Shown here in pieces: positions 1,395 through 23,306 of a DNA stretch of 32,470 nucleotides. The position numbers and the translations under genes are program-made. The notes beneath the pieces are model-generated. The model had not been told where the DNA came from and made no database searches. It saw nothing but the letters and a program-made list of their open reading frames with translations. Every line of letters begins with the position of its first letter. The stretch's first letter is position 1. Source of the DNA: Deltaproteobacteria bacterium (GTDB lineage: Bacteria > Desulfobacterota > Anaeroferrophillalia > Anaeroferrophillales > Anaeroferrophillaceae); assembly GCA_019306045.1 (NCBI GenBank), contig JAFDMG010000001.1:1-32470 (forward strand). Reading direction: 5' to 3'.

Positions 1395-2879
1395 TTACAT
1401 GATCATGGTCTTGATGGAAAACTGGGCCAGATCCCAGAGGTAGGAAGGCAGGATGCCCATCTGCAGCACGCCGAGGGCGGCCAGCACCAGGCCGACGACG
1501 ATCGCCGGCGAAGCCTTGGGCATCACCACTTCCTCCTCGGCTTCCTGGAAATACATCACCACCGTCACCCGCAGGTAGTAGTAAAGGGAGATGACGCTGT
1601 TGATCACCCCAAAAATGGCCAGCCAGACAAAGCCGCTCTTGATGGCCGAGCTGAAAAGGTAGAATTTGCCCATGAAACCGGAAGCCGGGGGAATGCCGGC
1701 CATCGAGAACATGAAAACCGCCATTGCCAGCCCCATGCCCGGGTACTTGAAGCCGAGGCCGGCAAAATCCTTCAGCTCGGTATACTCGCCGCCGTCCTTT
1801 TTCGCCAGCAGGGCAATGACTCCGAAAGCCCCGAGGTTGGTGAAAGCATAGCTCAACAGGTAAAAGAGAATCGCCGCCTGCCCCATCTTGGTGCCGGCGA
1901 CAAAGCCGACCAGCAGGTAGCCGGCATGGGCGATGCTCGAATAGGCCAGCATCCGCTTGATGTTGGTCTGGGACAGGGCCACGACGTTGCCGATGGTCAT
2001 GGTCAGGAAGGCCGCCAGCCACATGATGGCCGTCCAGTCTACCTGCAGGTGCCCCAAGGCAATGAAAAACACCCGCATGAACGCGGCGAACGCGGCCGCC
2101 TTGACGCCGGTGGCCATGAAGCCGGTAACCACCGTCGGCGCCCCCTCGTAAACATCAGGGGTCCACATGTGAAAAGGAAACATGGCCATCTTGAAACCAA
2201 AGCCGACCGTCATCAGGGCGACGCCGCCGAGCAACAGGCGGCTGTGGATGACTTCCGGGTGGGCGGTGAGGAAAGCACCGATCTTGACCACGTCCATGGT
2301 CCCGGTAGCCCCGTAAAGCAGGGCGAAGCCGAAGAGCAGAAAACCGGAGGCAAAGGCCCCCAAGAGGAAATACTTCAATGCCGACTCAATGGATTTGGCG
2401 TCGGTGGAACGGAAGCCCGCCAGGACGTAAATGGAGATGGACATGGTTTCCAGGGCCAGGAAAAGCAGCAGCAGGTTGCCGGCCGCGCCCATGAACATCA
2501 TGCCGACGGCGGCAAAAAGCAGCAGGCAGTAGTACTCACCGCTGTCCAGGGCCGGGCAGGAACGCTGGTAATTGATTGAAGAAAGGACGGTCAGCAGGGC
2601 AACCACGCAGATAATCACGGAGATGAAGGAGGAAAAACCGTCGGCAAGCACCATGCCGCTGTAGGCCGATTCCCGCATCCCGATGGTCAACAGAGCGCTG
2701 AACAGGGCGGCCACGACCCCGACCACGGCGATGAGACCGTTGGCGGCCGAAGTCTTTCCTGCCTCCCGGTCGGCAAAAACGTCCACCAGCAGCACCGTCA
2801 AAGCTGTCAGGGACAGGATCAACTGAGGCAAGATTGCTTTTACGTTCAGAGCCGGGACGACAAATTCCAGCATCTCCAT
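1395..2879 (-). CDS. nuoN: NADH-quinone oxidoreductase subunit N (NuoN)
   Basis: A 494-residue polytopic membrane protein, one of the three antiporter-like proton-pumping subunits of complex I. It shows the Proton_antipo_M core: the LALETMSISIYVLAGF helix with a conserved Glu, FGFKMAMFPFHMWTPDVYEGAPT with the broken-helix Lys, and NIKRMLAYSSIAHAGY. The ORF track begins at a TTG. The ATG at 2879 sits six bases after GGAGG and is the better start. It is the last gene of the nuo operon, 66 bases after nuoM, and is followed by an intrinsic terminator. Length and motifs are normal for the family. Confidence 0.95.
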   Translation of the reverse strand: MEMLEFVVPALNVKAILPQLILSLTALTVLLVDVFADREAGKTSAANGLIAVVGVVAALFSALLTIGMRESAYSGMVLADGFSSFISVIICVVALLTVLSSINYQRSCPALDSGEYYCLLLFAAVGMMFMGAAGNLLLLFLALETMSISIYVLAGFRSTDAKSIESALKYFLLGAFASGFLLFGFALLYGATGTMDVVKIGAFLTAHPEVIHSRLLLGGVALMTVGFGFKMAMFPFHMWTPDVYEGAPTVVTGFMATGVKAAAFAAFMRVFFIALGHLQVDWTAIMWLAAFLTMTIGNVVALSQTNIKRMLAYSSIAHAGYLLVGFVAGTKMGQAAILFYLLSYAFTNLGAFGVIALLAKKDGGEYTELKDFAGLGFKYPGMGLAMAVFMFSMAGIPPASGFMGKFYLFSSAIKSGFVWLAIFGVINSVISLYYYLRVTVVMYFQEAEEEVVMPKASPAIVVGLVLAALGVLQMGILPSYLWDLAQFSIKTMIM

Positions 2880-2945
2880 CACATTCCTCCACAAAATAAT
2901 AACAACAGGGGATTATCTGAATCTATAATTTTCCTGACGACAATG

Positions 2946-4535
<1,590 letters not shown>

Positions 4536-4589
4536 CTACCTGTCTCCTTGAAACCTGAAAGGATCTTTTTTCACCCTAGTCCAAGGCGG

Positions 4590-6692
4590 CTAGGAAAGCG
4601 CCTTGATGAAGTAATAGATGATGAGAACGACGGTACCCAGGACAACGGAAACCGCGTAGCTCTGAACATAACCGGACTGCAGGTAGCGGATGACGCCGCT
4701 GAACCAGCCGACCACCCGGGCCACGCCGTTGACCGTCCCGTCGACGATCGCCACGTCGACCCCTTTCCACAGCAGCTGGCTGAAACCGTGAATCGGCTTG
4801 ATGACCACCAGTTCGTAAAGCTCGTCCACGTACCACTTGTTGAGCAGCAGGCGATAGAGGAAGGGGAAGCTTTCGGCCAGCTTGGCCGGCAGTTCCCGTT
4901 TACGGATGTACATGGTGTAGGCGATGAAGATGCCGATCAGGGCGATGGCCACCGAGATCCCCATCAGCAGGTACTCGGCAAACAGGGAATGGTGCGCCCC
5001 GGCATGCTCGGCCATGGCGGCCGCGTGGCCGGCAACGGCATGCCCGGCGGCCGCTGCGTGCTCCGCCGCCCCGTGGGCCGCCTCGGCCAGGTGGTGGGCG
5101 CCGCCGGCCATTGCTGCCCCGGCTTTCTTGAGCAGCTTTTCCGGTCCCAACCCCATTACCGGTTCAAGGAAATGTTCAATCCGGTTGTTGCCGCCCAGGG
5201 CCTTGGGCACTCCCAGGTAGCCGCCGACGGCGGCCAGGAAAGCCAGGATCATCAGGGGCACGGTCATTGACTTGGGCGATTCGTGCAGGTGCTCGGCGGC
5301 GCCGTCCGGGGCCCGACACTCGTTGAAGAAAGTCATGAACACCAGGCGGAACATGTAAAAGGCGGTCATGCCGGCGGCCACGGCGCCGATCAGCCAGAGA
5401 ACGAAGTGCCCGTGGGCATAGGTCTGCCAGAGAATTTCGTCCTTACTGAAGAAGCCGGAAAAACCGGGGATCCCGGCAATCGCCAGGGTGGCAATCAGAA
5501 AAGTAACATAGGTAATCGGCGTCTTGTCTTTCAGGCCGCCCATGTTGCGCATATCCTGGGCGTCGGCATGGGAATGCACCTTGTGCAGGCCGTGGTGCAT
5601 GGCATGAATCACCGAACCGGAGCCAAGAAAGAGGAGGGCCTTGAAAAAGGCATGGGTGAGGACGTGGAACATGCCGGCGGCGAAGGCGCCGACCCCGAGA
5701 CCGAGAAACATGTAACCCAGCTGGCTGACGGTGGAATAGGCCAGCACCTTCTTGATGTCATTCTGCACCAGGCCGATGGAAGCCGCGAAAATGGCCGTCA
5801 GGGCGCCGAAGGTGGCCACCACTCCCATGGCAAAAGGCGACAGGGAATAGAGAATGTTGGAGCGCGCGATCATGTAGACGCCGGAGGTAACCATGGTGGC
5901 GGCGTGGATCAGGGCGCTGACCGGGGTCGGACCCGCCATGGCGTCCGGCAGCCAGACGTACAGCGGTATCTGGGCCGACTTGGCGGTGCAGCCGACAAAC
6001 AGCAGCAGGCAAATGGCGGTAGCCATTGAAGGCGACAACAGGTGCACATGCGGGAAAACCTCGGAAAACTGCAGCGACCAGACCCCGTGAGCCCCCAGCT
6101 GGGTGTAAAGAAGCAACAGGCCGAGGATGAAGCCGAAGTCGCCAACCCGGTTGGTGATGAACGCCTTTTTGCCGGCGATGGCGTTGGCCTCTTCCGAGAA
6201 CCAGAAGCCGATCAGCAGGTAGGAACAGAGGCCGACCCCTTCCCAGCCGAGAAACAGCAACAGGTAGTTGTTGGCCAGGATCAGGTTGATCATCGAGAAC
6301 ATGAACAGGTTCAGATAGGTGAAGAAACGGTAGTAGCGGCCCTCCTCGTGGTACATGTAGCCGATGGAATAGACGTGGATCAGGAACCCGACCCCGGTGA
6401 CGAACATGCACATCATCATGGAGAGGGGATCGATCTGGTAGGCAACGTAGGTATGGAGGACGCCGCCGCTGATCCAGTCAAACCAGGTAAACTCGTAGAG
6501 CCGCTGGTCGGGCGGCAGGCCCAGCATCTGGAAGAACAGAACGCAGGTCAGGACAAAGGAGAGCCCGACGGCAACACATGCCACCCAGTGCACGATATCC
6601 TTGTTTATCTCCTCTATCCGCCGCCCAAGGAGGCCGTTGATCAGAACCCCGATGATCGGGAAGATGGGAATCAACCACACTTTGTCGAACAT
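4590..6692 (-). CDS. nuoL: NADH-quinone oxidoreductase subunit L (NuoL)
   Basis: A 700-residue distal antiporter-like subunit of complex I with the long lateral-helix C-terminus. The core motifs are GWEGVGLCSYLLIGFW with the channel Glu, SAQIPLYVWLPDAMAGPTPVSALIHAATMVTSGVYM, and NDIKKVLAYSTVSQLGYMFLG. The ATG follows a GAGAGGG ribosome site. Residues around 515-570 form an unusual His/Ala-rich stretch (AHHLAEAAHGAAEHAAAAGHAVAGHAAA) just before the last helices. The rest is normal. Location in the operon (between nuoK and nuoM) is the standard bacterial order. Confidence 0.96.
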   Translation of the reverse strand: MFDKVWLIPIFPIIGVLINGLLGRRIEEINKDIVHWVACVAVGLSFVLTCVLFFQMLGLPPDQRLYEFTWFDWISGGVLHTYVAYQIDPLSMMMCMFVTGVGFLIHVYSIGYMYHEEGRYYRFFTYLNLFMFSMINLILANNYLLLFLGWEGVGLCSYLLIGFWFSEEANAIAGKKAFITNRVGDFGFILGLLLLYTQLGAHGVWSLQFSEVFPHVHLLSPSMATAICLLLFVGCTAKSAQIPLYVWLPDAMAGPTPVSALIHAATMVTSGVYMIARSNILYSLSPFAMGVVATFGALTAIFAASIGLVQNDIKKVLAYSTVSQLGYMFLGLGVGAFAAGMFHVLTHAFFKALLFLGSGSVIHAMHHGLHKVHSHADAQDMRNMGGLKDKTPITYVTFLIATLAIAGIPGFSGFFSKDEILWQTYAHGHFVLWLIGAVAAGMTAFYMFRLVFMTFFNECRAPDGAAEHLHESPKSMTVPLMILAFLAAVGGYLGVPKALGGNNRIEHFLEPVMGLGPEKLLKKAGAAMAGGAHHLAEAAHGAAEHAAAAGHAVAGHAAAMAEHAGAHHSLFAEYLLMGISVAIALIGIFIAYTMYIRKRELPAKLAESFPFLYRLLLNKWYVDELYELVVIKPIHGFSQLLWKGVDVAIVDGTVNGVARVVGWFSGVIRYLQSGYVQSYAVSVVLGTVVLIIYYFIKALS

Positions 6693-6784
6693 GTCCCTCT
6701 CCTGCCAGTTTCGCTTTATCTGCTGTTGCTATCTTTTTTTCGCCCCGACGATGCCGTCGCGGAAACGCTTGCCGTCCCGTGGCG

Positions 6785-7090
6785 CTACCACTTCATCAGG
6801 TTGAATGATTCAACGTTGATGGTGCCTTTTTTCCGGTACATGAGGATGAAAATCGCCAGCCCGACGGCGGCTTCGGCGGCCGCCACCGCCATGACGAACA
6901 GGACCATGAAAATCCCGTCCAGGGACTGGTTGGCCCGGCTGAAGGTGATGAACAGCAGATTCACCGCCCCCAGCATGATCTCGATGCACATGAAAACGAC
7001 GATGGCATTACGCCGGGTAATGGCCCCGATCGCCCCAATGATGAAAAGAACCACTGCCAGTGCCATGTACAGGTTTTGATAAGCCACCAT
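6785..7090 (-). CDS. nuoK: NADH-quinone oxidoreductase subunit K (NuoK)
   Basis: A 101-residue subunit with three transmembrane helices, part of the proton-transfer axis of the membrane arm. The two conserved membrane acidic residues are visible: one in FMCIEIMLGAVNLLF and one in VAAAEAAVGLAIFI. The track starts at a GTG at 7099. The ATG at 7090 is preceded by GAGGTG at the right distance and gives the normal family length. It lies 15 bases after nuoJ. A 92-base gap to nuoL holds no recognisable gene or hairpin. Confidence 0.95.
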   Translation of the reverse strand: MVAYQNLYMALAVVLFIIGAIGAITRRNAIVVFMCIEIMLGAVNLLFITFSRANQSLDGIFMVLFVMAVAAAEAAVGLAIFILMYRKKGTINVESFNLMKW

Positions 7091-7105
7091 TTCAGCCACC
7101 TCGCC

Positions 7106-7615
7106 TTACTGCTTCTGTTTTGCCAGCACGACAGCCCCCACCACCCCGGCGGTCAGGAGGATGGAAGCCAGCTCGAAAGCCAGCAGGTAATCGGAAAAGA
7201 GGAAATTGGAGAGCACGGCTATCTGGCCGTATTTCTGCATCAGCTGGTCGGTAATCGGCCCGTGCATGGCCAGCACCCCCTTGTTCACCGCCACCACCAG
7301 CAGTTCAAGGAAAAGCACCAGCAGGGCGACGACCCCCACCACCTTGCTCTTCCGCACCGGCGCCTTTTCTCCCTCTTCCTGGCGGATATTCAGCATCATG
7401 ATGGCGTAGATGATGAACATCATGATCGCCCCGGCGTAGACGATGATCTGCAGGATGGCGATGAACTCGGCCCTGAGCAGGAGATAGAGCACCGCCATGA
7501 AGAAGAAGGAAGCGACCATCCATAAGGCGCTGTGAATGGTGTTTTTGGCGAAAATCACCATCAGGGAAGTAACGATGGCGAACCCACCACACAAGAGCAA
7601 CATGATCAGTTCCAT
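7106..7615 (-). CDS. nuoJ: NADH-quinone oxidoreductase subunit J (NuoJ)
   Basis: A 169-residue, five-helix membrane subunit of complex I. The family pattern is clear: NTIHSALWMVASFFFMAVLYLLLRAEFIAILQIIVYAGAIMMFIIYAIMML, which contains the helix with the pi-bulge that takes part in coupling. It starts at ATG seven bases after GGAG and is followed closely by nuoK. Length and composition are ordinary for the family. Confidence 0.96.
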   Translation of the reverse strand: MELIMLLLCGGFAIVTSLMVIFAKNTIHSALWMVASFFFMAVLYLLLRAEFIAILQIIVYAGAIMMFIIYAIMMLNIRQEEGEKAPVRKSKVVGVVALLVLFLELLVVAVNKGVLAMHGPITDQLMQKYGQIAVLSNFLFSDYLLAFELASILLTAGVVGAVVLAKQKQ

Positions 7616-7642
7616 GGATATACTCCGCTACCGTTCAAAAAG

Positions 7643-8122
7643 TTATTTGCCCGTGAAAACAAAACGCTCGGGGTGTTTCAGTTTTTCGATATCGAAAATG
7701 AAATCTTCCCGGTGGTAATCGACGTAGTCATAGACCTTGGTCAGCTCGATGGCATCCTTGGGGCAGGCTTCCTGGCAGAAGCCGCAGAAGATGCAGCGGA
7801 TCTCGTCGATGATAAACTCTTTCGGGTACCTGGTCTGCCCTTCCTCCTCGTAGGGAACGATGGTAATCGCCTGGGGCGGGCAGATCTTGGCGCAGAGGCC
7901 GCAGGCGACGCACTTCAGCTTTCCCTGGTCGTCCACCTTCAGGCGGTGCAGCCCCCGCCAGCGATCCCGGACTTCCCGCCGCTCCTGGGGATACTGGATG
8001 GTGATCGGCTTGGTGAAAAAGTTCTGCAGGGTGTACTTCAAGCCTTTGAACAGGGGCAGGAGGTACTTGCCTTTTTCCGGCCGCCGGCTGCTGACGTTGA
8101 TGACGTAATCGGGCTTGTCCAT
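7643..8122 (-). CDS. nuoI: NADH-quinone oxidoreductase subunit I (NuoI), 2x[4Fe-4S]
   Basis: A 159-residue ferredoxin-like subunit carrying clusters N6a and N6b, which pass electrons from the peripheral arm to N2 on NuoB. Two full cluster motifs are seen, CVACGLCAKICP and CIFCGFCQEACP. The start at 8122 (MDKPDYVINV) has AAGG seven bases ahead; the upstream ATG in the track touches the ribosome site and is less likely. It lies between nuoH and nuoJ. In this operon it would receive electrons from the formate dehydrogenase that takes the place of NuoG. Confidence 0.96.
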   Translation of the reverse strand: MDKPDYVINVSSRRPEKGKYLLPLFKGLKYTLQNFFTKPITIQYPQERREVRDRWRGLHRLKVDDQGKLKCVACGLCAKICPPQAITIVPYEEEGQTRYPKEFIIDEIRCIFCGFCQEACPKDAIELTKVYDYVDYHREDFIFDIEKLKHPERFVFTGK

Positions 8123-8155
8123 AATCATACCTTTACGCTAACGGGTCGTTGACCA

Positions 8156-9142
8156 TCAGATATTGAAGATTACCATCCACAGGCCGGTGAGCAAGATGTT
8201 CAGCAGGCCGGCCGGCAGCAACACCTTCCACCCCAGTTCCATCACCTCGTCGTAACGGTAGCGGGGAAAGGTGGAACGTTCCCAGACACAGAAGAAGATC
8301 AGGGCAAAGGTCTTGATGAAGAACCACACCGGCCCCGGCAGCAGCGGCCCATGCCAGCCGCCGAGGAACAAGGTGGTCACCATGGCGGAAAAAACGAACA
8401 TGTGGGCGTACTCCGCCATGAAGAAAAGGGCGAACTTCATGCTGCTGTATTCGACATTGTAGCCGCAGGCCAGCTCGGCCTCGGCCTCCGGCATGTCGAA
8501 AGGCGTCCGGTTGAGCTCCGCCAGGCCGCAGACGATGAAAATGAAGAAGGCCAGGGGCTGCTTGACGATGTTCCAGAGGCCCGCCTGCTGCTCGACGATC
8601 CCCACCAGGCTCAGGGTCCCGGACACCATGACGACGCTGATCACCGCCAGGGCCATGGACAGCTCGTAGCTGATCATCTGGGCGGAGGCCCGCAGGCCGC
8701 CGAGCACCCCGTACTTGTTCCCGGAAGACCAGCCGCCGAGCATGACCCCGTAAGAGCCGATGGTGGAAATCCCGAGAACATAAAGGATGCCGATGTCCAG
8801 GTCAGTCAGGTAAAGGGTGATCTTGTGCCCCATGATGGTGACCGAGTCGCCGAAGGGGATGATCACCAGCAGGGAGAGGGCGGCGGCGATGCTGATGATC
8901 GGCGCCAGGATGAACACCGGCTTGTCGGCGTTGTCGGGCACCACCTCTTCCTTGAAAAACCCTTTGATGCCGTCGGCGATCGGCTGCAGGAGGCCGTGGA
9001 AGCCGACCCGCGTCGGCCCGTGGCGCAGCTGCACGTGGCCGAGAACCTTGCGCTCGATCCAGGTGGAATAGGCAACGATCAGCATACTTACCGCAAAAAC
9101 CACCAGGGTTTTGATGATCAGTATGGACAGAAATTCAACCAT
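8156..9142 (-). CDS. nuoH: NADH-quinone oxidoreductase subunit H (NuoH)
   Basis: A 328-residue membrane subunit that forms the quinone-chamber roof and links the peripheral and membrane arms. Family signatures are YSTWIERKVLGHVQLRHGPTRVGFHGLLQPIADGIKGFFKE, FAELNRTPFD-type sequence (GLAELNRTPFDMPEAEAELACGYNVEYSSMKFALFFMAEY) and FPRYRYDEVMELGWKVLLP. The ATG has a perfect AAGGAGGT ribosome site. It begins 12 bases after the stop of the formate dehydrogenase gene, so they are tightly co-translated, which supports the view that the dehydrogenase belongs to this complex. Confidence 0.97.
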   Translation of the reverse strand: MVEFLSILIIKTLVVFAVSMLIVAYSTWIERKVLGHVQLRHGPTRVGFHGLLQPIADGIKGFFKEEVVPDNADKPVFILAPIISIAAALSLLVIIPFGDSVTIMGHKITLYLTDLDIGILYVLGISTIGSYGVMLGGWSSGNKYGVLGGLRASAQMISYELSMALAVISVVMVSGTLSLVGIVEQQAGLWNIVKQPLAFFIFIVCGLAELNRTPFDMPEAEAELACGYNVEYSSMKFALFFMAEYAHMFVFSAMVTTLFLGGWHGPLLPGPVWFFIKTFALIFFCVWERSTFPRYRYDEVMELGWKVLLPAGLLNILLTGLWMVIFNI

Positions 9143-9154
9143 GAACGACCTCCT

Positions 9155-11827
9155 TTACGATGCCTTTTCCACTTTGACGGCACAGACTTTATATTCGGGA
9201 ATCTTCGCATCCGGGCAGAGGGCGGGATTGGTCAGCAGGTTGACCGCCGCCTCGCTGAAATGGAAGGGCACGAAAACCACGCCGGGCTGCGGCCTCTCCG
9301 TCAACCAGGCCTTGACCTTGATGCTGCCGCGCCTGGAGGTAATGTTGATGAAGTCGCCCTCGCCGACGCCCAGCTTTTCGGCGTCGGCCGGGTGAATCTC
9401 CGCCAGCAGCTCGGGGTAGAGGCGGGTCAGGCCCGAACCCTTCCGGGTCATGGTGCCGGTGTGGAAATGCTGCAGCACCCGGCCGGTACTGAGGATGAAG
9501 GGATACTCATCGTCCGGGGTTTCCGCCGGCGGCCGGTAGTCGATGGCGAAGAAGACCCCCTTGCCGCAGGCGTACTGGCCCACGTGCAGCACCGGCGTCC
9601 CGGGATGATCCTCGTCCGGGCAGGGCCAGGCCAGGGCCTTCTTTTCCAGACGTTCGTAGCTGATGCCGCCGTAGCTGGGGGTCACCTTGCGGATCTCCTC
9701 CATGATCGCCCGGGCGTCGGCGTAGTTCATCTGGTAGCCCATGGCGGCGGCCAGCTGGCAGATGATCCAGCTGTCCTCCCGGGCCTCGCCCACCGGCTCC
9801 ACCGCCTTGCGGACCCGCTGGACCTTGCGCTCGGAATTGGTAAAGGTGCCGTCTTTCTCGGCAAAGGAAACCCCCGGCAGCACCACGTCGGCCAGCTGGG
9901 CGGTCTCGGTAAGGAAGATGTCCTGCACCACGAGAAAATCCAGCTTTTTCAGGGCTTCCTCGATGTGGTGCAGATCCGGGTCGCTGACCATGGGGTTTTC
10001 ACCCATGATGTACATGCCCCGCACCTTGCCTTCCTCCACCGCCGGGAACATCTCGGTTACCTTGAGACCGGGAACCTCGGAGAGGCTTTCCAGCCCCCAG
10101 GCCTTGGCAAACTTCTCCCGCACCTCCTGGTCGGCAACCTTCTGGTAGCCGGTGAAAACGTTGGGCAGGGCCCCGAGGTCGCAGGCGCCCTGGACATTGT
10201 TCTGGCCGCGCAGCGGGTTGACGCCGCCGCCCCGGACGCCAATGTTGCCACAGAGCATCGCCAGGTTGCCGAGGCACTTGACGTTGTCGGTGCCGCTGGT
10301 GTGCTGGGTGATACCCATGGCGTAAAGGATGGAAGCCGGCCGCGCCTGGCCATACATTTTGGCGGCCCGGTAAAGGTCGCCGGTGGCAATCCCGGTAATC
10401 TCGGCAACATATTCCGGGGTGTATTTTTCCAGGTTCTTGGCAAACTCCTCGTAGCCGACGGTGCACTCGGCGACATGGTCGGCGGCCTGCCAGCCCTCCT
10501 TGATGATGATGTGCATCAGGCCGTTGATCCAGGCCACGTCGGTGCCCGGCTTCGGCTGCAGCCAAAGGTCGGCGTAGTCCACCAGGTCAATCCGCCGGGG
10601 ATCGACCACCAGCAGCTTCGCGCCCCGCTTCAGCACTGCCTCCTTGATGTAGTTGGCAAAAATGGGATGGTTCTCGGTGGTGTTGGTCCCGGTCACCAGG
10701 ATGGTTTCCGCTCGCAGCACATCCATGATCGGGTTGGTCATCGCCCCACTGCCAAACGTGGCGGCCAGTCCGGCCACCGTGGAGCTGTGTCAGAGACGGG
10801 CGCAGTGATCGACATTGTTGGTGCCGATGACCGCGCGCATGAATTTCTGGAAAAGATAGTTTTCTTCGTTGGTGCACCGGGCCGAGGAGAGACCGGCAAT
10901 GGCGTCGGGACCGGACTCCTCCTTGATGCTCTTGAATTTCTCGGCCACCAGGCTCAGGGCATCGTCCCAGCTGGCCTCCCGGAACTCACCGTCTTTCTTG
11001 ATCAGGGGCTTGGTCAGCCGTTCCTCGCTGTTGATGAACTCGTAGCCGAACCGCCCCTTGACGCACAGGCTGCCGCGGTTGACTCCCTTGCCCTCCTTGG
11101 TGGTCACCGCCATGACCCGGTTCTGTTCCACGTTCAGTTCCAGCTGGCAGCCGCAGCCGCAGTAGGTGCAGGTGGTCGGCACCCGCTTCACCAGCCAGGG
11201 GCGGCCCTTGTAGCGGCTGAGGTTCTCGGTCAGGGCCCCGGTGGGACAGACCTGGAGACACTCGCCGCAGGACTGGCACTTGTCCTCGTCAATGACCACC
11301 ACCTGGGAGCCGTAGCCGGCGCCCTTGATGTCGATGGCGCCGATACCCTTGATCTCCCGGCAGGCGGTGACGCAGCGCAGACACATGATGCAGCGGTCGG
11401 GCCAGTAGCGGATCAGCGGCGTGGCATACTGGGAACTGCGCTCCGGCTTCGGCGTCTGGTATTCGACCCGGTCGATGCCGAACTCGTAGACCAGATCCTG
11501 CAGCAGGCATTCGCCGCCCTTGTCGCAGATGGGACAGTCGAGAGGGTGGTTGACCAGGATCAGCTTCAGGGAATCCTTGCGAATCCGCTGCAGGCGCTCC
11601 GAGTTGGTGGTCACGCTGATGCCTTCCACCACCGGGGTCGTACAGGCAGCCATCGGGTGTGCGCACCCTTCAATCTCGACGACACACATCCGGCACGAAC
11701 CGATGGGATCCAACCGCCCATGGAAACAAAGCGTCGGAATGCTGATGCCGGCGGACTTCGCAGCCGCAAGAATCGTCGTTCCCGCGGGAACTTTTACTTC
11801 CTTGCCGTCAATCGTTAACTTGACCAT
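9155..11827 (-). CDS. fdhA: Selenocysteine formate dehydrogenase alpha subunit in the nuoG position
   Basis: The track shows two ORFs (10790-11833 and 9155-10777) in the same frame, split by a single TGA at 10792-10790. Read through as selenocysteine they give one 890-residue protein. The N-terminal NuoG-like part has a [2Fe-2S] site (C34, C45, C48, C62), a His/Cys3 cluster (H94, C98, C101, C107) and two [4Fe-4S] motifs (C146-C156, C184-C194). The Mo/W-bis-MGD domain begins with CTYCGCGCQ plus C255, and the active-site string NNVDHCARL-U-HSSTVAG is the hallmark of formate dehydrogenases, with Sec346 as metal ligand. The C-terminal MGD-binding domain (FVPFHFSEAAVNLLTNPAL) also matches FdhA rather than NuoG. 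It should oxidise formate to CO2 and feed electrons to NuoI. The alternative start at 11833 has a poorer ribosome-site spacing. Confidence 0.93.
10760..10792 (-). promoter_or_regulatory. Sec UGA codon and bacterial SECIS hairpin of fdhA
   Basis: The UGA is at 10792-10790. Beginning 12 bases after it, a 7-bp stem GGUGGCC/GGCCGCC (one G-U pair) encloses the loop GGACU. The first loop G is base 22 counted from the U of UGA. This matches both the distance and the GGnCU loop of the Escherichia coli fdhF element. SelB should bind here to insert selenocysteine. Confidence 0.9.
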
Positions 11828-11906
11828 GCTCATATTCCTGCACTCGTTAAGTTATGCTACTGTATCTGGAACCTGCAAAATTAGCCTGTCTTCGCCGCCT
11901 GACCCC

Positions 11907-13859
11907 TCAGCCGACGGCAATGGTCGCCACCCGGTAACAGCGCAGGCAGCGGTCCGCCTCGGCCATCGCCTCCTGGGGCGAAAAGCCCTGTTCTACCTCG
12001 TCGAAGGTATATTTCCGGGTATCGGGCGGCAACATTTTCAGCTGGTAGCGGGGCCGGCCGCCGATGAAGCCGATCTCTTCCTGGGGATCGTAAACCTTCA
12101 CCTGGGAGAAGAACTTGTCGAAATAATCGTTTTCGGTGGCCACCAGCGGCTCGTCGTTGATAAACTTGTCGATGTTGAACGCCGCCTTGCGGCCGCCGGC
12201 ACAGGCGGTAATCAGGGCCCCGGGACCGGTTTCGCAGTCGCCGGCGGAAAAAATCTTCGGGTTTTCCGTCTGCTTGGTGTCCTCGTTGACGACGATGGTG
12301 TGCCAGCGGGTGGTCTTGACATTATCGACGCCCTCGAGCAGGGAGAGATCGATGGTCTGGCCGATGGCCGGCACCACGATGTCGCAGTCGATGACAAACT
12401 CCGAACCTTCCACCGGCTCCGGCCGCCGGCGGCCGGACTCGTCCGGTTCCCCCAGCTGCATCTTGATGCATTCGAGGCCGACCACTTTGCCGTTCTCGGC
12501 CAGCACCTTGATGGGCTGGGTGAGAAAATGGAAGTTGACCTTTTCTTCCTTGGCGTCGTGAATTTCCACGTCGTCAGCCGGCATCTCCTTTTCCGTCCGC
12601 CGGTAGACCAGGTTGACGTCTTCCTTGCCGATGCGGAAGGAACAGCGGACACAGTCAATGGCCACGTTGCCGCCGCCGACCACCACCACTTTCTTGCCTT
12701 CGGGATAGGGATCGATGCCGCTGTTGATGTCCAGCAGGTACTTGACCCCGGGGATGAAACCCTGGTAGCCGGCGTCCTCGCCCTCCACCCGCATGGAAGA
12801 ACTCAGGTGGGCGCCGATGGCGACGAAAACGGCGTCAAAGTCGGCCTCCAGCTGCGACAGCTTGACATCCTTGCCCACCTCGGTGTTGTAATGGATGGTG
12901 ACCCCCAGCTTCTGGATCATCTCCACCTCGTGGCGCAGGATCTGCCGCGGCAGGCGGTAGTCGGGAATGCCGACCGCCGACATGCCGCCCGGCTCGCCCA
13001 GACGCTCGTAAATCGTTACCTGGTGTCCCTTGCGGGCCAGGTGATAGGCGCAGGTGACCCCGGCCGGCCCGGCGCCGACGATGGCCACCTTGCCGGTCTT
13101 TGCCGACGGCACCACCTGGTATTCGGGCTCCCGCCCGTGGTCCAGCTCGTAGTCGGCGACGAAGCGCTTGAGAAATTTTATGGAAATGGCTTCATCCAGG
13201 TTGGCCCGCCGGCAGTGCTCCTCGCAAGGCCGGACGCAGACCCGGCCGACGACGCCGGGCAGGGGCAGGCGTTCGCGGATCACCTCCAGGGACTCCTGGA
13301 ACTTGCCTTCCTTGATGCACTCGACGTAGGTGGGAATATCCAGGTGGATCGGGCAGGCATCCATGCAGGGAGCGGTCAGGCGTGAACGGTACTTGCCGGC
13401 CGGCACGGCGGCGCCCCCGGCGGCGGCGGCGAAATCATCGGCAAAATGTTCCAGGGCATGCAGCAGGGGCAGCGGTCCCGACTGGCCGATGTTGCACTTG
13501 GAAGACTCGCTGATTGACTCGGCCAGGCCGGCGATCAGCTCCAGGTCCGCCGGCCGGCCCTGGCCCCGGCACAGGCGGCCGAGGGTATCGGCAATCACCC
13601 GGGTGCCGATGCGGCACAGGAAGCACTTGCCGCAGGACTGCTGCTGGACCTCTTCCATGTAGGTGCGGCAGAGATCGACGACATTAACCTCGGCAGAACG
13701 CAGCACGATGCCGTACCAGCCGATCAACGCCTTGATCTCCTCGTCCTGCTGAAAATATTCCGGCAACGAAACTTTGCCAACCGTTTCAAAATCCTGGGGT
13801 TCCTTGCCGCGGTTATCCACGACTTCGCCGCCCCAGGAGCTGAAAAGTATCTCTGCCAT
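11907..13859 (-). CDS. NuoF-type 4Fe-4S domain fused to GltD-like NAD(P)H flavoprotein
   Basis: A 650-residue protein in the place of nuoE/nuoF. Residues 60-140 look like the C-terminal cluster domain of NuoF (SCGKCFLCRIGTRV with C76, C79, C82, then C122). From residue 160 it is a GltD/NfnB/SudB-type flavoprotein: an N-terminal cluster module (C165, C169, C208, C212, C216), an FAD motif GAGPAG at 262, an NAD(P)H motif GGGNVA at 395, and the FAD-closing GDCETGPGALITACAGGRKAA. The last residues contain CLRC. The FMN/NADH fold of NuoF and the thioredoxin-like NuoE are absent. It probably exchanges electrons between NAD(P)H and the FeS chain of the formate dehydrogenase; direction and nucleotide preference cannot be read by eye. 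The ATG at 13859 has GGGAG seven bases ahead and is preferred over the TTG at 13883. Confidence 0.85.
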   Translation of the reverse strand: MAEILFSSWGGEVVDNRGKEPQDFETVGKVSLPEYFQQDEEIKALIGWYGIVLRSAEVNVVDLCRTYMEEVQQQSCGKCFLCRIGTRVIADTLGRLCRGQGRPADLELIAGLAESISESSKCNIGQSGPLPLLHALEHFADDFAAAAGGAAVPAGKYRSRLTAPCMDACPIHLDIPTYVECIKEGKFQESLEVIRERLPLPGVVGRVCVRPCEEHCRRANLDEAISIKFLKRFVADYELDHGREPEYQVVPSAKTGKVAIVGAGPAGVTCAYHLARKGHQVTIYERLGEPGGMSAVGIPDYRLPRQILRHEVEMIQKLGVTIHYNTEVGKDVKLSQLEADFDAVFVAIGAHLSSSMRVEGEDAGYQGFIPGVKYLLDINSGIDPYPEGKKVVVVGGGNVAIDCVRCSFRIGKEDVNLVYRRTEKEMPADDVEIHDAKEEKVNFHFLTQPIKVLAENGKVVGLECIKMQLGEPDESGRRRPEPVEGSEFVIDCDIVVPAIGQTIDLSLLEGVDNVKTTRWHTIVVNEDTKQTENPKIFSAGDCETGPGALITACAGGRKAAFNIDKFINDEPLVATENDYFDKFFSQVKVYDPQEEIGFIGGRPRYQLKMLPPDTRKYTFDEVEQGFSPQEAMAEADRCLRCYRVATIAVG

Positions 13860-13913
13860 CAGCCCACTCCCATTTCCTGACAATATTGAAAACTAGCTAT
13901 CTGTCAACGTCGG

Positions 13914-15086
13914 TTAACGGTCGATCTCTCCCAGAACAATATCAATGCTGCCGATGATGGCGATGACATCGGCAATCATGTGACCAACGATCATCTTCGG
14001 CAAGGCGCTGGTCAGGATGTAACATGGGGAACGGATCTTCATCCGGTAGGGATGTTCACTGCCGTCCCCGACCAGGTAGAAGCCCAGCTCGCCCTTCGAA
14101 CCCTCCACCGAGGCGTAAACCTCGCCCTCGGGGGCGTGCGGTCCTTCGCACTGAATCTTGAACCGCCGGATCAAGGCGGAAATGTCTTCCATCACTGCGC
14201 CGAGGTCGGGATTGGCCACCCAGGGATTGTCCACGTTGACCGGTCCCTCGGGCAGGTTCTCGATGGCCTGGTCGATGATGTTGATCGACTGCTTGAACTC
14301 CTCCATGCGCACCAGGTAGCGGTCGTAGACGTCGCCGACCTCGCCCACCGGCACCTGGAAATCGAAGTCATCGTAGCTGCTGTAGGGGCGGACCTTGCGC
14401 AGGTCATAGGGGACCCCGGAACCCCGGAGACTGGGACCGGTGAAGCCGAAATTGACCGCGTCCTCGGCGGAAACCTTGCCGACCCCCATGGTCCGCTTGC
14501 GCCAGATGATATTGTCGGTCAGCAGGGTGTGGTAGCCGTCGATGGCGGTGGGAAACCACTTGACGAAGTCGCGGACAAACTTGATGAAATCCGGGGTGAT
14601 GTCCTTGGCCAGGCCGCCAACCCGCAGGTAGGAGGGGGTCAACCGGTAGCCGGAGGCCTCCTCGTTGATGTTCATGATCATTTCGCGATCACGGAAAGTG
14701 TAGAAAACGACGGTCATGGCGCCGATATCGAGGGCATGGGAACCCAGCCACAGGTGGTGCCCCATGATCCGGGCCAGCTCGCCCATGATCACCCTGATGT
14801 ACTGCGCCCTTTTCGGCACCTCGATTCCCAGCAGCTTTTCCACCGCCAGGCAGTAGCCGAGGTTGTTCAGGGAAGCGGCCGTATAGTCCAGCCGGTCGGT
14901 AAGGGGAATTACCTGCTGAAAATTCATGCCTTCAGCGATCTTTTCGATTCCCCGATGCAGCTGGCCGACGTGCGGCGTCGCCTTGACAATAACTTCGCCG
15001 TCCAGCTCGAGCACGATCCGCAGCACCCCGTGGGTCGCCGGATGGTGTGGTCCCATATTGAGGGTCAATGTTTTGCCTTCAGCCAT
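13914..15086 (-). CDS. nuoD: NADH-quinone oxidoreductase subunit D (NuoD)
   Basis: A 390-residue 49-kDa-type subunit that forms the quinone pocket with NuoB. The quinone head-group ligands are kept: the His in GPHHPATHGVLR and the Tyr in DRLDY. Other signatures are HVGQLHRGIEKIAEG, MGELARIMGHHLWLGSHALDIGA and the end IIGSIDIVLGEIDR. The nickel ligands of related hydrogenases are not present, so this is a true complex I subunit. The ATG at 15086 is six bases after GGGGA; the track's TTG start is less likely. The gene follows nuoC closely and is separate from it (not a NuoCD fusion). Confidence 0.96.
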   Translation of the reverse strand: MAEGKTLTLNMGPHHPATHGVLRIVLELDGEVIVKATPHVGQLHRGIEKIAEGMNFQQVIPLTDRLDYTAASLNNLGYCLAVEKLLGIEVPKRAQYIRVIMGELARIMGHHLWLGSHALDIGAMTVVFYTFRDREMIMNINEEASGYRLTPSYLRVGGLAKDITPDFIKFVRDFVKWFPTAIDGYHTLLTDNIIWRKRTMGVGKVSAEDAVNFGFTGPSLRGSGVPYDLRKVRPYSSYDDFDFQVPVGEVGDVYDRYLVRMEEFKQSINIIDQAIENLPEGPVNVDNPWVANPDLGAVMEDISALIRRFKIQCEGPHAPEGEVYASVEGSKGELGFYLVGDGSEHPYRMKIRSPCYILTSALPKMIVGHMIADVIAIIGSIDIVLGEIDR

Positions 15087-15107
15087 CGTTTTTCCCCAAA
15101 TCAACTG

Positions 15108-15620
15108 TTACAATACTTCGATTGTATCCGGATCCCATTTCTTGTCAAAATCCTTCCCTTCCACCGGGAACTCCTTGCGCAGCGGATGCCCCTCGAAGCC
15201 GTCCCAGGTCAGGATGCGGCGCAGGTCGGGATGATCGGCAAAACGGATGCCCATCAGGTCGTAGACCTCCCGCTCGGCCCACATGGCGGCATGCCAGATG
15301 CCGGTCACCGTCGGCACTTCGGGAACTTCCAGCTCATCGGCCACCGGCACCTTGACCAGCAGGCGGTGCAGATGGGTGGTCGAAACCAGGACGTAAACGA
15401 CCTCGAAACGGGGTTTGCGGCGCCGCTGCGAGTTGTCGATGCTGAGGACGTCGATGAGCAAATCGAAAGCCAGCTGCTCATCGTCATGGAGAAACCGCAT
15501 GACATCCAGCAAAGCTTCCGCCTTGATCACCAGCTGCAGGTCGTCGCAGCACTCCTGTTCGGCCAGCACGGCGTCGCCAAACTTGCCCTTGACAGTTTCA
15601 GCTATTTTTGCGTTTTCCAT
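15108..15620 (-). CDS. nuoC: NADH-quinone oxidoreductase subunit C (NuoC)
   Basis: A 170-residue 30-kDa-type structural subunit of the peripheral arm. The diagnostic C-terminal signature AEREVYDLMGIRFADHPDLRRIL followed by EGHPLRKEFPVEG is intact. The track starts at a TTG; the ATG at 15620 has AGGTGA six bases ahead. It lies 25 bases after nuoB and 21 bases before nuoD on the same strand. It has no cofactor-binding residues, as expected for this family. Confidence 0.95.
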   Translation of the reverse strand: MENAKIAETVKGKFGDAVLAEQECCDDLQLVIKAEALLDVMRFLHDDEQLAFDLLIDVLSIDNSQRRRKPRFEVVYVLVSTTHLHRLLVKVPVADELEVPEVPTVTGIWHAAMWAEREVYDLMGIRFADHPDLRRILTWDGFEGHPLRKEFPVEGKDFDKKWDPDTIEVL

Positions 15621-15645
15621 CGGCAATCACCTGTCCGCTGCCTGA

Positions 15646-16140
15646 TTATTCATCCACGTCAGGAAGCATGTCAAAACGTTCGGTCTTGATCTTGGCCTGC
15701 AGCTTCATCAGGCTGGCCAGCAGCGCCTCGGGGCGCGGCGGGCAGCCGGGAACGTAGACGTCCACCGGGATGATCTGGTCGACCCCCTGGACAACGGCGT
15801 AGCTCTTGAAAACGCCGCCGCAGGAAGCGCAGGCGCCCATGGCGATCACCCACTTGGGTTCGGTCATCTGGGCGTAGATCCGCTTGACCATGACCGACAT
15901 TTTCTTGGTCAGCGTCCCGGCGACGATCATCAGGTCAGACTGACGCGGGGAAGGACGGAAAACCTCGGAACCAAACCTTGCGATGTCATAGCTTGCCAAA
16001 CTGGTAGCCATCATCTCCAAGGCGCATCAGGCCAGACCGAAGGTACAGGGCCAGATCGAATTGCTCCGCCCCCAGTTTACCAGCGCGTTCAGGTTGGTAA
16101 CCAGGAAGCCTTCGCCTTTCAAGCCACTCTCTATTCCCAT
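15646..16140 (-). CDS. nuoB: NADH-quinone oxidoreductase subunit B (NuoB) with in-frame TGA at an N2-cluster cysteine, probable selenoprotein
   Basis: The track cuts this gene into a C-terminal ORF (15646-16020) and the end of another ORF (16027-16359). Both are in one frame, separated only by a TGA at 16029-16027. Starting from the ATG at 16140, which has GGGAG seven bases ahead and overlaps nuoA by ten bases, the gene encodes 164 residues, the normal NuoB length. The N-terminal half reads [17 protein letters not shown], then TGA, then CALEMMAT. The family sequence is TFGLACCAIEMM, so the TGA falls exactly on the first of the two adjacent cysteines that bind cluster N2. The other ligands remain: C39, C104 (MGACASCGG) and C133 (VPGCPPRPE). 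I infer Sec38. Alternatives are a TGC-to-TGA sequencing error or a recent nonsense mutation. Confidence 0.8.
15982..16029 (-). promoter_or_regulatory. UGA codon and candidate SECIS hairpin in nuoB
   Basis: After the UGA (16029-16027) the RNA can fold as GAU / AUGGCU / CCA, loop GUU, UGG / AGCUAU / AUC, with small internal loops between the helices. The apical loop starts with G at base 29 from the UGA, inside the range known for bacterial SECIS elements. It is less classical than the fdhA and ushA-like hairpins here (loop at base 22, GGnCU), so it supports but does not prove selenocysteine insertion. Confidence 0.5.
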
Positions 16141-16487
16141 TCCAACGCTCCCTTTTTCCAGACATAGACATAGCAGATGAACAGAATAAGCATGAAAACC
16201 AGCATCTCCACGAAGCCGAAGACGCCCAGCTTGCGATAGTGAACCGCCCAGGGATACATGAAAACGCATTCCAGGTCGAAAACCAGGAACAGCAGGGCCA
16301 CGACATAGTACTTGATCGGCGTCGGGGCGTAGGTCACCCCTTCCGTCGGCATGCCGCACTCGTAGGTTTCCCTTTTGACCTTGAAACGCCGGCGGGGCCC
16401 CAGGGCTGTGGAAAGAACCACGGCAAAAACGCCAAAGCCGATGCCAACCAGCATCATCACCAGTACGGGAACATAGTTAATCAGCAT
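16131..16487 (-). CDS. nuoA: NADH-quinone oxidoreductase subunit A (NuoA)
   Basis: A 118-residue, three-helix membrane subunit and the first gene of the nuo operon. Family signatures are the loop [13 protein letters not shown] with the conserved Cys and the helix [16 protein letters not shown] with the conserved Asp/Glu pair. The ATG at 16487 has GAGGG about six bases ahead. Its last ten bases overlap the start of nuoB. The region upstream carries a strong promoter-like sequence. Confidence 0.96.
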
Positions 16488-17126: not shown

Positions 17127-17173
17127 ATTACTAAGATTATTATAAATTTCTACTCTTTAAGGAGGACATGGAG

Positions 17174-19396
17174 ATGTCACACATCAGGAAAATGTGGCAG
17201 CTGCTGGTGGATTTCCTGCGCGATTTCATCGGGGAAGCCGTCAGGGGCACCAAACAGCACTGGAAAGGCATTGCCATCTTTACCGCGGTGGCTTTTGTTT
17301 GTTTCATCATTTTAATCGCCCTGCTGCTCAAGGCCACCGCCAGCTACAAGTTCTGCGGCATGTGCCACAACATGGACATCTATATCCAGTCCTGGAAGGA
17401 ATCGACCCACAAGAACGTCAGTTGCCTCGAATGCCACTTCGAACCAGGGGTCTGGGGTGAATTGAAGGGCAAGTGGAAGGCCCAGACTCACGTGGTGATG
17501 AAAATCACCGGCACCGCCCCGCCCCGCCCGCACACTGAAATCAGCGATGCCAGCTGCCTGCGGGAAGGCTGCCATTCCCTCGACAAGCTCCGTGAAAGCT
17601 CCATCACCTATAAAGGGGTGGCTTTCAGCCACGGCACCCACCTGGACGAACTGCGCCGCGGCAAAAAACTGAAATGTGTCAGCTGCCACTCCCAAATTGT
17701 GCAGGGCAAGCACCTGACCGTTACTGAAACCACCTGTTTCACCTGCCATTTCTACCAGAAAGAAGAACACCCCGAAATGGCCGACTGCCAGCTGTGCCAT
17801 GTCAAGACCAAGGTGAAGCTGTTCATCGACGCCAACAAGAACCTGCCTTTCAAGCACCGGGAATACCTGGACCGCAAGGTTTCCTGCCGCCAGTGCCATT
17901 TTGACATCATTGCCGGCGACGGCCACCTGAAAGACAACATCTGCGTCCAGTGCCACGCCGAGCCGAAGATCCTGCGCAGCAAGTATGACAGCGAACACAT
18001 CCACATGAACCACGTCACCCTGCACAAGGTGGAGTGCTTCCGCTGTCACGCCGTCATTCAGCACTTTATTCCCCGGCCGGCCGACAGTCCGGTCCCCGGC
18101 AAGCAGATCCAGCGCACCGAACTGACCGGCTACCATTACGACACCAACTGCATCAAGTGCCACGCCTTGGATCAGCATGACAACAAGCGCCTGATGTTCA
18201 TGGGCAAGGGGGCATCCGACCTGCCCGATCTGCCCAGCCGCATGTACCTGGCCCATCTCGACTGCGCCAGCTGCCATGTCAAGCTTTCCGAAACCGACGG
18301 GGTTTTCCGGGGCATTAAGCGCGATGGCTTCGAGGAGATCATCAAGTCCTGCTCCGACTGTCACGGACCGGGATACGACGACATGGCCAAGCACTGGAAG
18401 AAACTGCTGACCAAGCAGATCGAGCTGACCAAAAGCGCTCTGCTGAATGCCCGCAACCAGCTGGCCGCCCACAAGAAATCGCCCAGCTACGAACAGGCCT
18501 CACTGCTGATCGAGCAGGCCGGCAAGAACCTGCGGTTTACCATCCACGGCAAGGGACTGCACAACATCGACTACGCCCTGAAGCTGCTGGCGGACAGCCG
18601 GGAAAAGGTGGAAAAATCCCTGGCGCTGATCACTCCCGGCTACCAGGCCAAAAAGATCACCTCACCTTCGGGCTGCACGACCCTCTGCCACAGTTGCGTC
18701 GAGTGCATCGAGACCAAGCCGGTGCCCTTTGGCAACGTGGAATTCCCCCACGACGTTCACGTCAGCGATGAGGGGCTGGCCTGCCTTGACTGCCACAGCC
18801 CCCGCAGTCGGCACGGGGAAACCTATCTGAAAAACTGCAACGAGTGCCACCATGGCAGCGGCGCCGGCGCCGTCCAGTGTGAAGACTGCCACGTGGCCAC
18901 CTACAACCTTTACCACGGCCAGAACGGCTGCGACGAAATCAGCTGTGACGTTCAGGGCAAGCCCAACCCGATGGTCAAGGAAGTCAAATGCGCCGAATGC
19001 CACGTCCAGGTCACCGAGGGCGACCAGGCCACCGTGGACGGCATCAAGCAGACCTGCGTCGACTGTCATGACGACAGCTATGCCGCCATGGTGGACGACT
19101 GGGAAAAGCAAGCCAAGGCCATGAACCTGGAGAAGCTGCGGGCAGACTTGGAGGAGATCCAGCAGATGGTACTGCTGGCGATCAGGAACGGCCAGTACAC
19201 CTACGATGCCCAGGACCTGATCAACAATGCCGACAAGAACCTGACCCAGCTGGAGAAGGGCAACCCCATCCACAACCTCAAGTTCTCCAGCGAACTGGTC
19301 AGCAAGGTGCAGTACCTGCTGAGCCTGGCCAGGGAAAAACTGCAGCGGCACTCGACGATCAAAACCCTCCAGGAAGGGGAGTACATCTCCAAGTAA
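17174..19396 (+). CDS. Membrane-anchored NapC/NirT-type giant multiheme cytochrome c
   Basis: A 740-residue protein with one N-terminal transmembrane helix (IAIFTAVAFVCFIILIALLL) and the rest predicted in the periplasm. The first hemes (YKFCGMCHNMDIYIQSW...CLECH) resemble the NapC/NirT/NrfH quinol dehydrogenases, so it likely takes electrons from menaquinol. I count 16 CXXCH motifs, plus one CX4CH (CLREGCH), one CX3CH (CTTLCH) and a CX4C without His (CDEISC). Two long helical stretches that follow a heme motif (about residues 393-488 and 628-727) look like copies of each other. AAGGAGG lies eight bases before the ATG at 17174 but only two before the one at 17168, so 17174 is chosen. It stands alone between a promoter and a terminator, divergent from the nuo operon. 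Its electron acceptor is unknown. Confidence 0.85.
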   Translation: MSHIRKMWQLLVDFLRDFIGEAVRGTKQHWKGIAIFTAVAFVCFIILIALLLKATASYKFCGMCHNMDIYIQSWKESTHKNVSCLECHFEPGVWGELKGKWKAQTHVVMKITGTAPPRPHTEISDASCLREGCHSLDKLRESSITYKGVAFSHGTHLDELRRGKKLKCVSCHSQIVQGKHLTVTETTCFTCHFYQKEEHPEMADCQLCHVKTKVKLFIDANKNLPFKHREYLDRKVSCRQCHFDIIAGDGHLKDNICVQCHAEPKILRSKYDSEHIHMNHVTLHKVECFRCHAVIQHFIPRPADSPVPGKQIQRTELTGYHYDTNCIKCHALDQHDNKRLMFMGKGASDLPDLPSRMYLAHLDCASCHVKLSETDGVFRGIKRDGFEEIIKSCSDCHGPGYDDMAKHWKKLLTKQIELTKSALLNARNQLAAHKKSPSYEQASLLIEQAGKNLRFTIHGKGLHNIDYALKLLADSREKVEKSLALITPGYQAKKITSPSGCTTLCHSCVECIETKPVPFGNVEFPHDVHVSDEGLACLDCHSPRSRHGETYLKNCNECHHGSGAGAVQCEDCHVATYNLYHGQNGCDEISCDVQGKPNPMVKEVKCAECHVQVTEGDQATVDGIKQTCVDCHDDSYAAMVDDWEKQAKAMNLEKLRADLEEIQQMVLLAIRNGQYTYDAQDLINNADKNLTQLEKGNPIHNLKFSSELVSKVQYLLSLAREKLQRHSTIKTLQEGEYISK

Positions 19397-21866: not shown

Positions 21867-23306
21867 CTATTTTTTCTTCTCCCCAAGCGAGCAGGTTTTG
21901 TGAAAATATTTCTGGAAATTGAACTCCGGGCTTTTTTCTTCGATATGACACTGCAGGCAGACGGCCGGCTCCTTTTTCTTGACAATTTTACTGGGATCCC
22001 CTTTCAAGGCCACGTGCAGGGAACCGGGACCATGACAGGATTCGCACTGGACATTGGCATAAAAACCGATGTTGTGCAGGTCGCTGAAACCACCTTTCCG
22101 GCCATAACCGAGGGAATGGCAGCCGATGCACTCCTTGTCGAACTCCTGCCCCCGGAGGATGAGAGCATGATACGCCCGTGCATGGGCGCTGTTCTGCCAG
22201 AGGGTGTACCGTTGGGGATGGCACTTCCGGCAAGTCTGCACGCCGACGTATTTCTTATCGCCGGTGGCCGCCAGTTTCTTGGTCGGAATCGTCATGTTGG
22301 TGGTCGCCTTGACCGCCTGTAGCCGCTTGATTTTCTCCAGCACGGCGGTCACCTTGGGGGCGATAACCGGATGATCCGGCATCGAAAGCTTCAATTTGAC
22401 AAAACGGTTGTAATAGTAGAGGCCGTCAACGATCTTGCCCTCGTACCGCTCCGTGGCCGACAGCTGCTTCTCCTTGTCATCATCGAGGAACTTGACTTCC
22501 AGGTAGCCGATGCACTTGCCGCCCCGGTCGAGGTGGGTGATATAGGTATTTTTGGCCACCAGGGGAATGGAGATCTGGTTTTTCTTGCTGCTGCCAATGA
22601 TCAGGTTGATTGGCAAGCCCCGATGGCCCATCTTGCGGCACTTCAGCCCGGTCATGTTGGTCAGCAGGATGATGTACTGAGCCCCCTTGCTTCGTAATTC
22701 AGCGGTAATCTTGCCCGCCTCTTCAAAAGGATCTTTCACCTTCAGCTTGTGGCCACCGGGAATCTTGGCCAGCTTCAGCCGCTTGTCAATCAGCCCGAAA
22801 ATCCCCACCTTGACGCCGTCAATGGTGTACAACAGGTAAGGCTTGAAAAGCCGCTGGCCATGGCTGTCGCACAGGTTGGCCGAGATGAAGGGAAATTTGG
22901 CTTTCTTCTCTTCCCGCTTGAGAAAATCAATCCCCAGGGAGAGATCATAAGCGCCGATATTGAAAGCGTCACAGCCCATGAAATTGTAGGAGGAGATAAT
23001 CAGGTCGGCAACCAATTGGGCCTCGACCTTCTGTTTCGGTTTGATGCCTTCCCGACGGAAAAGCAGATTGCCGGCGTTGACAATCAGCGGCCGGGGGACC
23101 TCTTTCTTAACCTTTTCCAGGAAAGTTGCGCGCTTGGCCAGACCGCCACGCGGATTCTTGTGTCAGCCGCAGGGGACAATGGAGCCCCGTTCGTCCGCCG
23201 AATAGACAATGTGCAGACTTTTCCCCTGGAGGGCCGCCAGGCTGCCGCCGGGGCAACAGCAGAGCAGCAAGAACAGACTCAGCAACAAACAACCACTCTT
23301 CTTCAT
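21867..23306 (-). CDS. UshA-like tetraheme selenoprotein
   Basis: The track starts at 23015, but the same frame runs back to an ATG at 23306 if the TGA at 23165-23163 is read as selenocysteine. The 479-residue product begins with a signal peptide (MKKSGCLLLSLFLLLCC...SLA). A UshA/5'-nucleotidase-like domain follows, starting LHIVYSADERGSIVPCG-U-HKNPRGGLAKRATFL. Cysteine homologues of this family have PCGC at that place, so Sec48 pairs with C46 in a CxU motif. The usual metal ligands look lost: NDxHG is ADERG and GNHEF is GAYDL, so phosphatase activity is doubtful. The C-terminal part carries four heme sites (CRKCH, CIGCH, CESCH, CLQCH) in a cytochrome c554-like arrangement. I recall database families named UshA-like (seleno)protein, so the type has precedent; its function is unknown. 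Confidence 0.87.
23129..23165 (-). promoter_or_regulatory. Sec UGA codon and SECIS hairpin of the ushA-like gene
   Basis: After the UGA (23165-23163) the RNA forms CGCG-UGGC / GCCA-(AG bulge)-CGCG around the loop GGUCUG. The first loop G is base 22 from the UGA, as in Escherichia coli fdhF, and the loop contains the same GGUCU. The same position and loop type occur in the fdhA gene of this window. Confidence 0.9.

Follow-up and report, generated by a model that had tools for sequence, protein, structure and literature searches.

A Predicted Selenocysteine at a Cluster N2 Ligand Position in the Complex I Subunit NuoB of Nitrospirota and Desulfobacterota-Type Bacteria

A Complex I Operon with an In-Frame TGA in nuoB

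The window, which means here the whole stretch of 32,470 nucleotides that was analysed, carries a nuo operon on its minus strand. The genes follow the order nuoA-B-C-D-[NuoF 4Fe-4S/GltD-like]-[NuoG-FdhA fusion]-H-I-J-K-L-M-N, and nuoB is surrounded by genes for the core subunits of complex I (nuoA, C, D and H-N). The evidence throughout is sequence comparison and computation. The features are as follows.

16131..16487, minus strand: nuoA (NF005922, 1.8e-39)
15646..16140, minus strand: nuoB, 164 residues with the TGA read through, PSST/Oxidored_q6 family (TIGR01957, PF01058, phmmer)
16027..16029, minus strand: in-frame TGA, predicted selenocysteine, nuoB codon 38, first tandem-cysteine position
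16024..16026, minus strand: TGC for Cys39, second tandem cysteine (Nqo6 Cys46), directly after the TGA
15988..16011, minus strand: SECIS-like hairpin spanning nt 19-42 after the UGA, with GUU (16001-15999) as its apical loop (fold and synonymous entropy)
15108..15626, minus strand: nuoC (TIGR01961)
13914..15104, minus strand: nuoD (TIGR01962, 541 bits; residue mapping)
11907..13883, minus strand: NuoF-type 4Fe-4S domain with a GltD-like FAD/NAD(P) oxidoreductase (PF10589, PF14691, PF07992)
9155..11833, minus strand: NuoG-like N-terminus fused to FdhA (TIGR01591, 889 bits on read-through; PF13510, PF10588, PF00384)
1395..9142, minus strand: nuoH, I, J, K, L, M and N (Pfam PF00146, Fer4, PF00499, PF00420 and PF00361 three times)

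The nuoB gene contains one in-frame TGA, and its read-through product has the sequence TFGLA-U-CALEMM at this point. When read through, the protein scores 236.7 bits against TIGR01957 (cut-off 142.7), matches PF01058 and is found by phmmer to be homologous to Thermus Nqo6 (2fug_6, E=1.9e-67). The gene thus shows the in-frame UGA, the uninterrupted frame and the homology to either side of the codon by which bacterial selenoproteins are recognized. All NCBIfam matches of the protein are to ordinary models of NuoB or hydrogenase. The gene starts within nuoA, with an overlap of 10 bases, and GGGAG lies upstream of the start. In an ungapped alignment to 2fug_6, residue 38 corresponds to Nqo6 Cys45 and E. 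coli NuoB Cys63, while the intact Cys39, Cys104 and Cys133 correspond to Nqo6 residues 46, 111 and 140 and to E. coli NuoB residues 64, 129 and 158. These four Nqo6/NuoB positions are established ligands of cluster N2. The initial annotation had described a single TGA at the first tandem cysteine with both sides intact, three retained ligands, an overlap with nuoA and a ribosome site, and had assigned the TGA codon to an N2 ligand position; the family scores, the alignment and the gene boundaries bear all of this out.

The FdhA part of the NuoG fusion has the classical selenocysteine codon of formate dehydrogenase (TGA at 10792-10790, context NNVDHCARL-TGA-H), as had also been claimed for the fdhA of this operon. 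Across 9155-13883 on the minus strand, NuoG is represented by the selenocysteine-containing NuoG-FdhA fusion, and NuoE/NuoF are replaced by the NuoF 4Fe-4S domain and the GltD-like flavoprotein. The operon apparently encodes a formate-linked complex I. A tie between the nuoB selenocysteine and formate dehydrogenase operons was considered and rejected because TGA-containing nuoB genes are also found beside other molybdoenzymes and in other gene orders. Genes for multihaem cytochromes lie near the nuo operon, at 17168-19396 and 27100-29007 on the plus strand and at 21867-23015 on the minus strand; one of them has a NapC/NirT-type N-terminus.

Distribution of the TGA Codon

The exact pattern TFGL[AGSC]-TGA-TGY-A-x-E-M was matched by 82 contigs among 84,980 species, and all of them belong to Nitrospirota or Desulfobacterota-type bacteria (Nitrospirota, Thermodesulfobacteriota/Deltaproteobacteria and the Tharpella group). 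The carriers include an isolate, Thermodesulfatator autotrophicus S606, whose TGA lies in NZ_LSFI01000021.1, and a genome assembled as a single contig of 2,322,224 bases. In the window's phylum, the pattern was present in 34 of 395 genomes; a TGA at the second tandem cysteine and the reversed pattern were each found in none of these 395. A NuoB family search in the nearest 59 genomes revealed a single in-frame nuoB TGA in two more distant families and, within the window's order, in 15 of 22 genomes. The TGA sits at the same position in every case in which the codon was read out. In none of the 82 distinct copies does a stop occur across the first 95 residues downstream of it, and all of them retain the second tandem cysteine. 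Homologues with Cys at this codon are represented by 21 NuoB rows, in addition to Nqo6 Cys45. The close relatives, to which the initial annotation had looked for a decision, mostly carry TGA and not Cys, and its worry that one wrong base might explain the picture is not borne out, the same codon being found in about 80 species from independent assemblies. On this comparison of genomes, the in-frame TGA is genuine rather than an error of assembly. Its extent was underestimated at first, and it points to a widespread predicted selenoprotein family rather than to one odd gene.

Selenocysteine Machinery and Genetic Code

The window genome, a draft that is 78% complete, contains all the sel genes by which the initial annotation had proposed to check its reading: selA, selB, selD and a tRNA-Sec with the anticodon TCA (UCA). 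Its selD (L134, G000 C80:38310-39245) itself has an in-frame TGA and would encode a Sec-SelD. Full-length SelB scored above the curated cut-off in 39 of the 40 TGA-NuoB genomes tested, and the exception is a 0.7-Mb draft. In G003 (96% complete, 610 contigs), SelB above the cut-off was not found, which counts against the selenocysteine reading. Three Nitrospirota genomes with TGA-NuoB (G402, G426 and G427; loci L058, L117 and L126) have at least two long SelB genes above the family cut-off. Translation of nuoH, kup and the GltD-like gene still ends at TGA in the usual way, and the genetic code is therefore unchanged.

A Hairpin Downstream of the UGA

A hairpin with a G in its apical loop, as expected of a bacterial SECIS element, lies just 3' of the UGA and is weak in the window copy. 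It consists of a 6-bp lower stem, an internal loop, a 3-bp upper stem and a GUU triloop at nt 29-31, the U of the UGA being nt 1. The structure that had been described earlier, with its GUU loop and first G at base 29, therefore exists, but folding alone lends it no support: the window hairpin is unremarkable against shuffles (z = +0.97) and is one of the weakest copies, and the support comes from comparison instead. A search of the whole window against Rfam at the gathering threshold gave no match, which is no argument against a SECIS element.

Hairpins occur at about nt 19-42 after the UGA in most clades, with stems that are unrelated in sequence. Examples are GACGA-cggga-TCGTC in Nitrospirota, GGCTGCT-gga-AGCAGCC in the Thermodesulfobacteriota type, GTCGCC-agttc-GGCGAC in the Syntrophaceae type, GGCTGC-aggt-GCAGCC and GGCAGC-aggt-GCTGCC in the Caldimicrobium type, and GTTGCTG-gtt-CAGCAAC in G044. 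The loop differs and is larger in one Nitrospirota clade (L054, L116). Measured against synonymous recodings, the hairpins of TGA copies are more stable (mean z of -1.61 for 79 copies and -1.54 for 85 copies), compared with -0.46 for 15 Cys-NuoB paralogues from the same genomes, -0.08 for 25 other Cys-NuoB genes and -0.5 to +0.3 for shifted control stretches of nuoB. The difference has a Mann-Whitney p of 6e-9, uncorrected for relatedness. In three close relatives of the window (L016, L018, L023), the hairpins fold no better than synonymous recodings; this and the weakness of the window hairpin count against the selenocysteine reading.

Codon usage in this region is also restricted. Over codons +6 to +13, the synonymous entropy amounts to 0.11 in 22 Nitrospirota copies and 0.15 and 0.06 in groups of 11 and 13 copies; in 14 copies of the window's order, it is 0.22 versus 0.61 elsewhere. 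Across the four TGA clades, the values elsewhere in nuoB range from 0.59 to 0.68. For the Cys paralogues of the same genomes, the entropy is 0.78 at these codons versus 0.65 elsewhere, with only four codons scorable. The Nitrospirota codons ACG ACG ... TCG TCA CAC are identical in 22 of 22 distinct copies. Covariation was found at two pairs with double changes among seven distinct sequences, with a score reached by 1 of 500 shuffles, and a second group has one double change in five sequences, too few for a test; compensatory changes are few and the sequences are related, and this kinship inflates the nominal significance. A tally of differences per codon position was set aside because of a one-residue difference among clades downstream. 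Taken as a pattern of codon use, the hairpin region appears to be under synonymous constraint only in TGA copies.

Cysteine Forms and the Second nuoB

The NuoB tree shows TGA forms interleaved with Cys forms; at least nine changes are needed, five of which are forced by well-supported branches. Such a tree would require several gains or losses of selenocysteine, and we count this against the selenocysteine reading. The Cys form of G006 (L184), from the window's order, is nested in a TGA clade, and its hairpin has lost some pairs (GGCCACCAGTCTGGCAAGC versus GGCTACCAGTTTGGCAAGC), as is expected after a reversion from Sec to Cys. The Cys form of G028 (L183) lies within the Syntrophaceae-type TGA group, where the nearest fork is more weakly supported, and still keeps the hairpin remnant GGTC...GACC. 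Judged from the tree, both copies are likely to be recent Sec-to-Cys reversions and might serve as natural controls. A second intact nuoB with Cys is present in the window genome on contig C199 (L003, G000), in its own nuo operon and in a distant Cys-only clade. The initial annotation had held that a second intact copy beside a decaying one would speak against its reading; the intact copy exists, but as a deep paralogue beside a TGA copy that is not decaying.

A Selenoprotein Reading and Its Rivals

The nuoB gene very probably encodes a selenoprotein in which Sec38 would be inserted via SelB and the hairpin and would ligate N2 together with Cys39, Cys104 and Cys133. All checks open to sequence analysis favour this reading: the conservation of the TGA in two phyla, the complete selenocysteine machinery, the constraint on the clade-specific hairpin in TGA copies only, a Cys revertant whose hairpin has lost pairs, and the mapping to an N2 ligand. 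SelB with Sec-tRNA would bind the hairpin that starts about 19 nt after the UGA, and selenocysteine would be inserted as residue 38. NuoB would then fold normally, with the four residues holding N2, the [4Fe-4S] cluster that donates electrons to quinone. In the window, the protein would serve the formate-linked complex I with the NuoG-FdhA fusion in place of NuoG, and elsewhere other nuo operons. Selenocysteine insertion is well supported by sequence; its actual occurrence, an Se-Fe bond and any change in the potential or protonation of N2 are inferred.

Several other explanations of the TGA can be considered. A sequencing error or decaying pseudogene needs only a single base change from TGC or TGT, and the fragmented draft with its second intact nuoB would suit it. 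As a general explanation it is refuted by the conservation of the TGA: independent assemblies share the codon, among them those of a cultured isolate and of a genome in one contig. A TGA at the next Cys codon, which an error could reach just as easily, is absent from all 395 genomes, the downstream frame is open in 82 of 82 copies, and practically no credence is left for this explanation. An open read-through frame would fit any inserted residue, and a near-cognate tRNA or a changed code might, independently of SelB, place Cys, Trp or some other amino acid at the UGA. This is very unlikely, given that TGA is a stop in three other genes, that the NuoB TGA accompanies SelB and an RNA constraint just downstream, and that it occurs only where Cys is otherwise universal. 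Termination at the UGA and a restart downstream would yield NuoB in two pieces, and several ATG codons (ALEMM) do follow shortly after. A restart at a later Met would omit the second tandem cysteine, an N2 ligand that directly follows the UGA and is invariant in 82 of 82 copies, and a split protein would need neither the selenocysteine machinery nor a hairpin; we consider it barely credible.

The remaining explanation accepts the insertion of selenocysteine but lets another group bind the cluster, leaving Sec38 to redox or protective chemistry. In its favour, ligation by Sec38 is a prediction from position, and the loop with the tandem cysteines is under strain in solved enzymes and shows mobility in a mutant (PMC8042128). 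The residue occupies the exact ligand position and the three other ligand positions are retained, which makes this alternative improbable, if less so than the preceding ones.

Cluster N2 and the Quinone Site

The NuoD of the window keeps His25 and Tyr74, which correspond to Nqo4 His38 and Tyr87, and these quinone-site residues are kept in 96 and 94 matches from the Sec loci, with no exceptions. At the position of Nqo4 His169, which we take to be the redox-Bohr histidine, the window NuoD has Thr156. Threonine is found there in 88 of 88 Sec-locus matches (L051-L132) and also in nearly all Cys relatives compared; it is therefore a background trait and not a partner of selenocysteine, and a specific pairing of Sec with the loss of this histidine was rejected. 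A study of complex I describes higher mobility for the first tandem cysteine than for the second; the first one lies near the quinone-ligating Tyr144, presumably in Yarrowia numbering (PMC8042128). A selenolate ligand could plausibly be expected to shift the pKa and the reduction potential at N2. It is a tentative and rather doubtful idea that a selenolate-ligated N2, at a mobile position beside the quinone-binding tyrosine and without the redox-Bohr histidine, would give a different control of protonation and potential.

Relation to Known Selenoproteins and Significance

The protein resembles NuoB/Nqo6/PSST (NDUFS7) in family, length, operon place and the four cluster-ligand positions, but its first tandem cysteine is encoded by UGA and a hairpin follows downstream. 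FdhA of the same operon, the prototype of the bacterial SECIS, shares the in-frame UGA, the machinery and a hairpin directly downstream within the coding sequence. Its selenocysteine binds Mo/W, whereas that of NuoB would bind an Fe-S cluster in a quinone-reducing module. PF02508 is the membrane Rnf/Nqr family and not NuoE or NuoB of complex I. With the ocean-metagenome selenoprotein of this family called "NADH:ubiquinone oxidoreductase subunit E", the likeness is one of name only (PMC2398784, PMC13188914). In the selenoproteins HdrA and VhuD/MvhD (CxxU), Sec also replaces a cysteine of an iron-sulfur electron-transfer protein, but their folds are unrelated and they belong to soluble heterodisulfide/hydrogenase systems without quinone reduction or proton pumping (PMC13188914). 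NuoB is missing from a 2026 inventory that covers 119 families of prokaryotic selenoproteins (PMC13188914), and a study of complex I in Manganitrophaceae does not mention selenium (PMC9040806). Text searches of an open-access library of papers found no description of selenocysteine in NuoB or complex I, in agreement with the initial annotation, which knew of none. On present sequences, Sec-NuoB would be a new family of selenoproteins that uses the known UGA/SelB route and no new decoding principle.

Few enzymes have been studied as much as complex I, whose N2 ligands are regarded as invariant. Exchanging S for Se, a single atom, at the quinone-donating cluster is an experiment that many would want, and in nature bacteria have apparently made it. 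It could provide a spectroscopic handle (77Se) on N2 and a test of how the tandem cysteines contribute to the coupling between electron transfer and proton transfer. It would also tie selenium supply to energy conservation in anaerobic bacteria that use sulfur and formate. In genomes with a TGA-containing nuoB, ordinary annotation may split or discard the gene.
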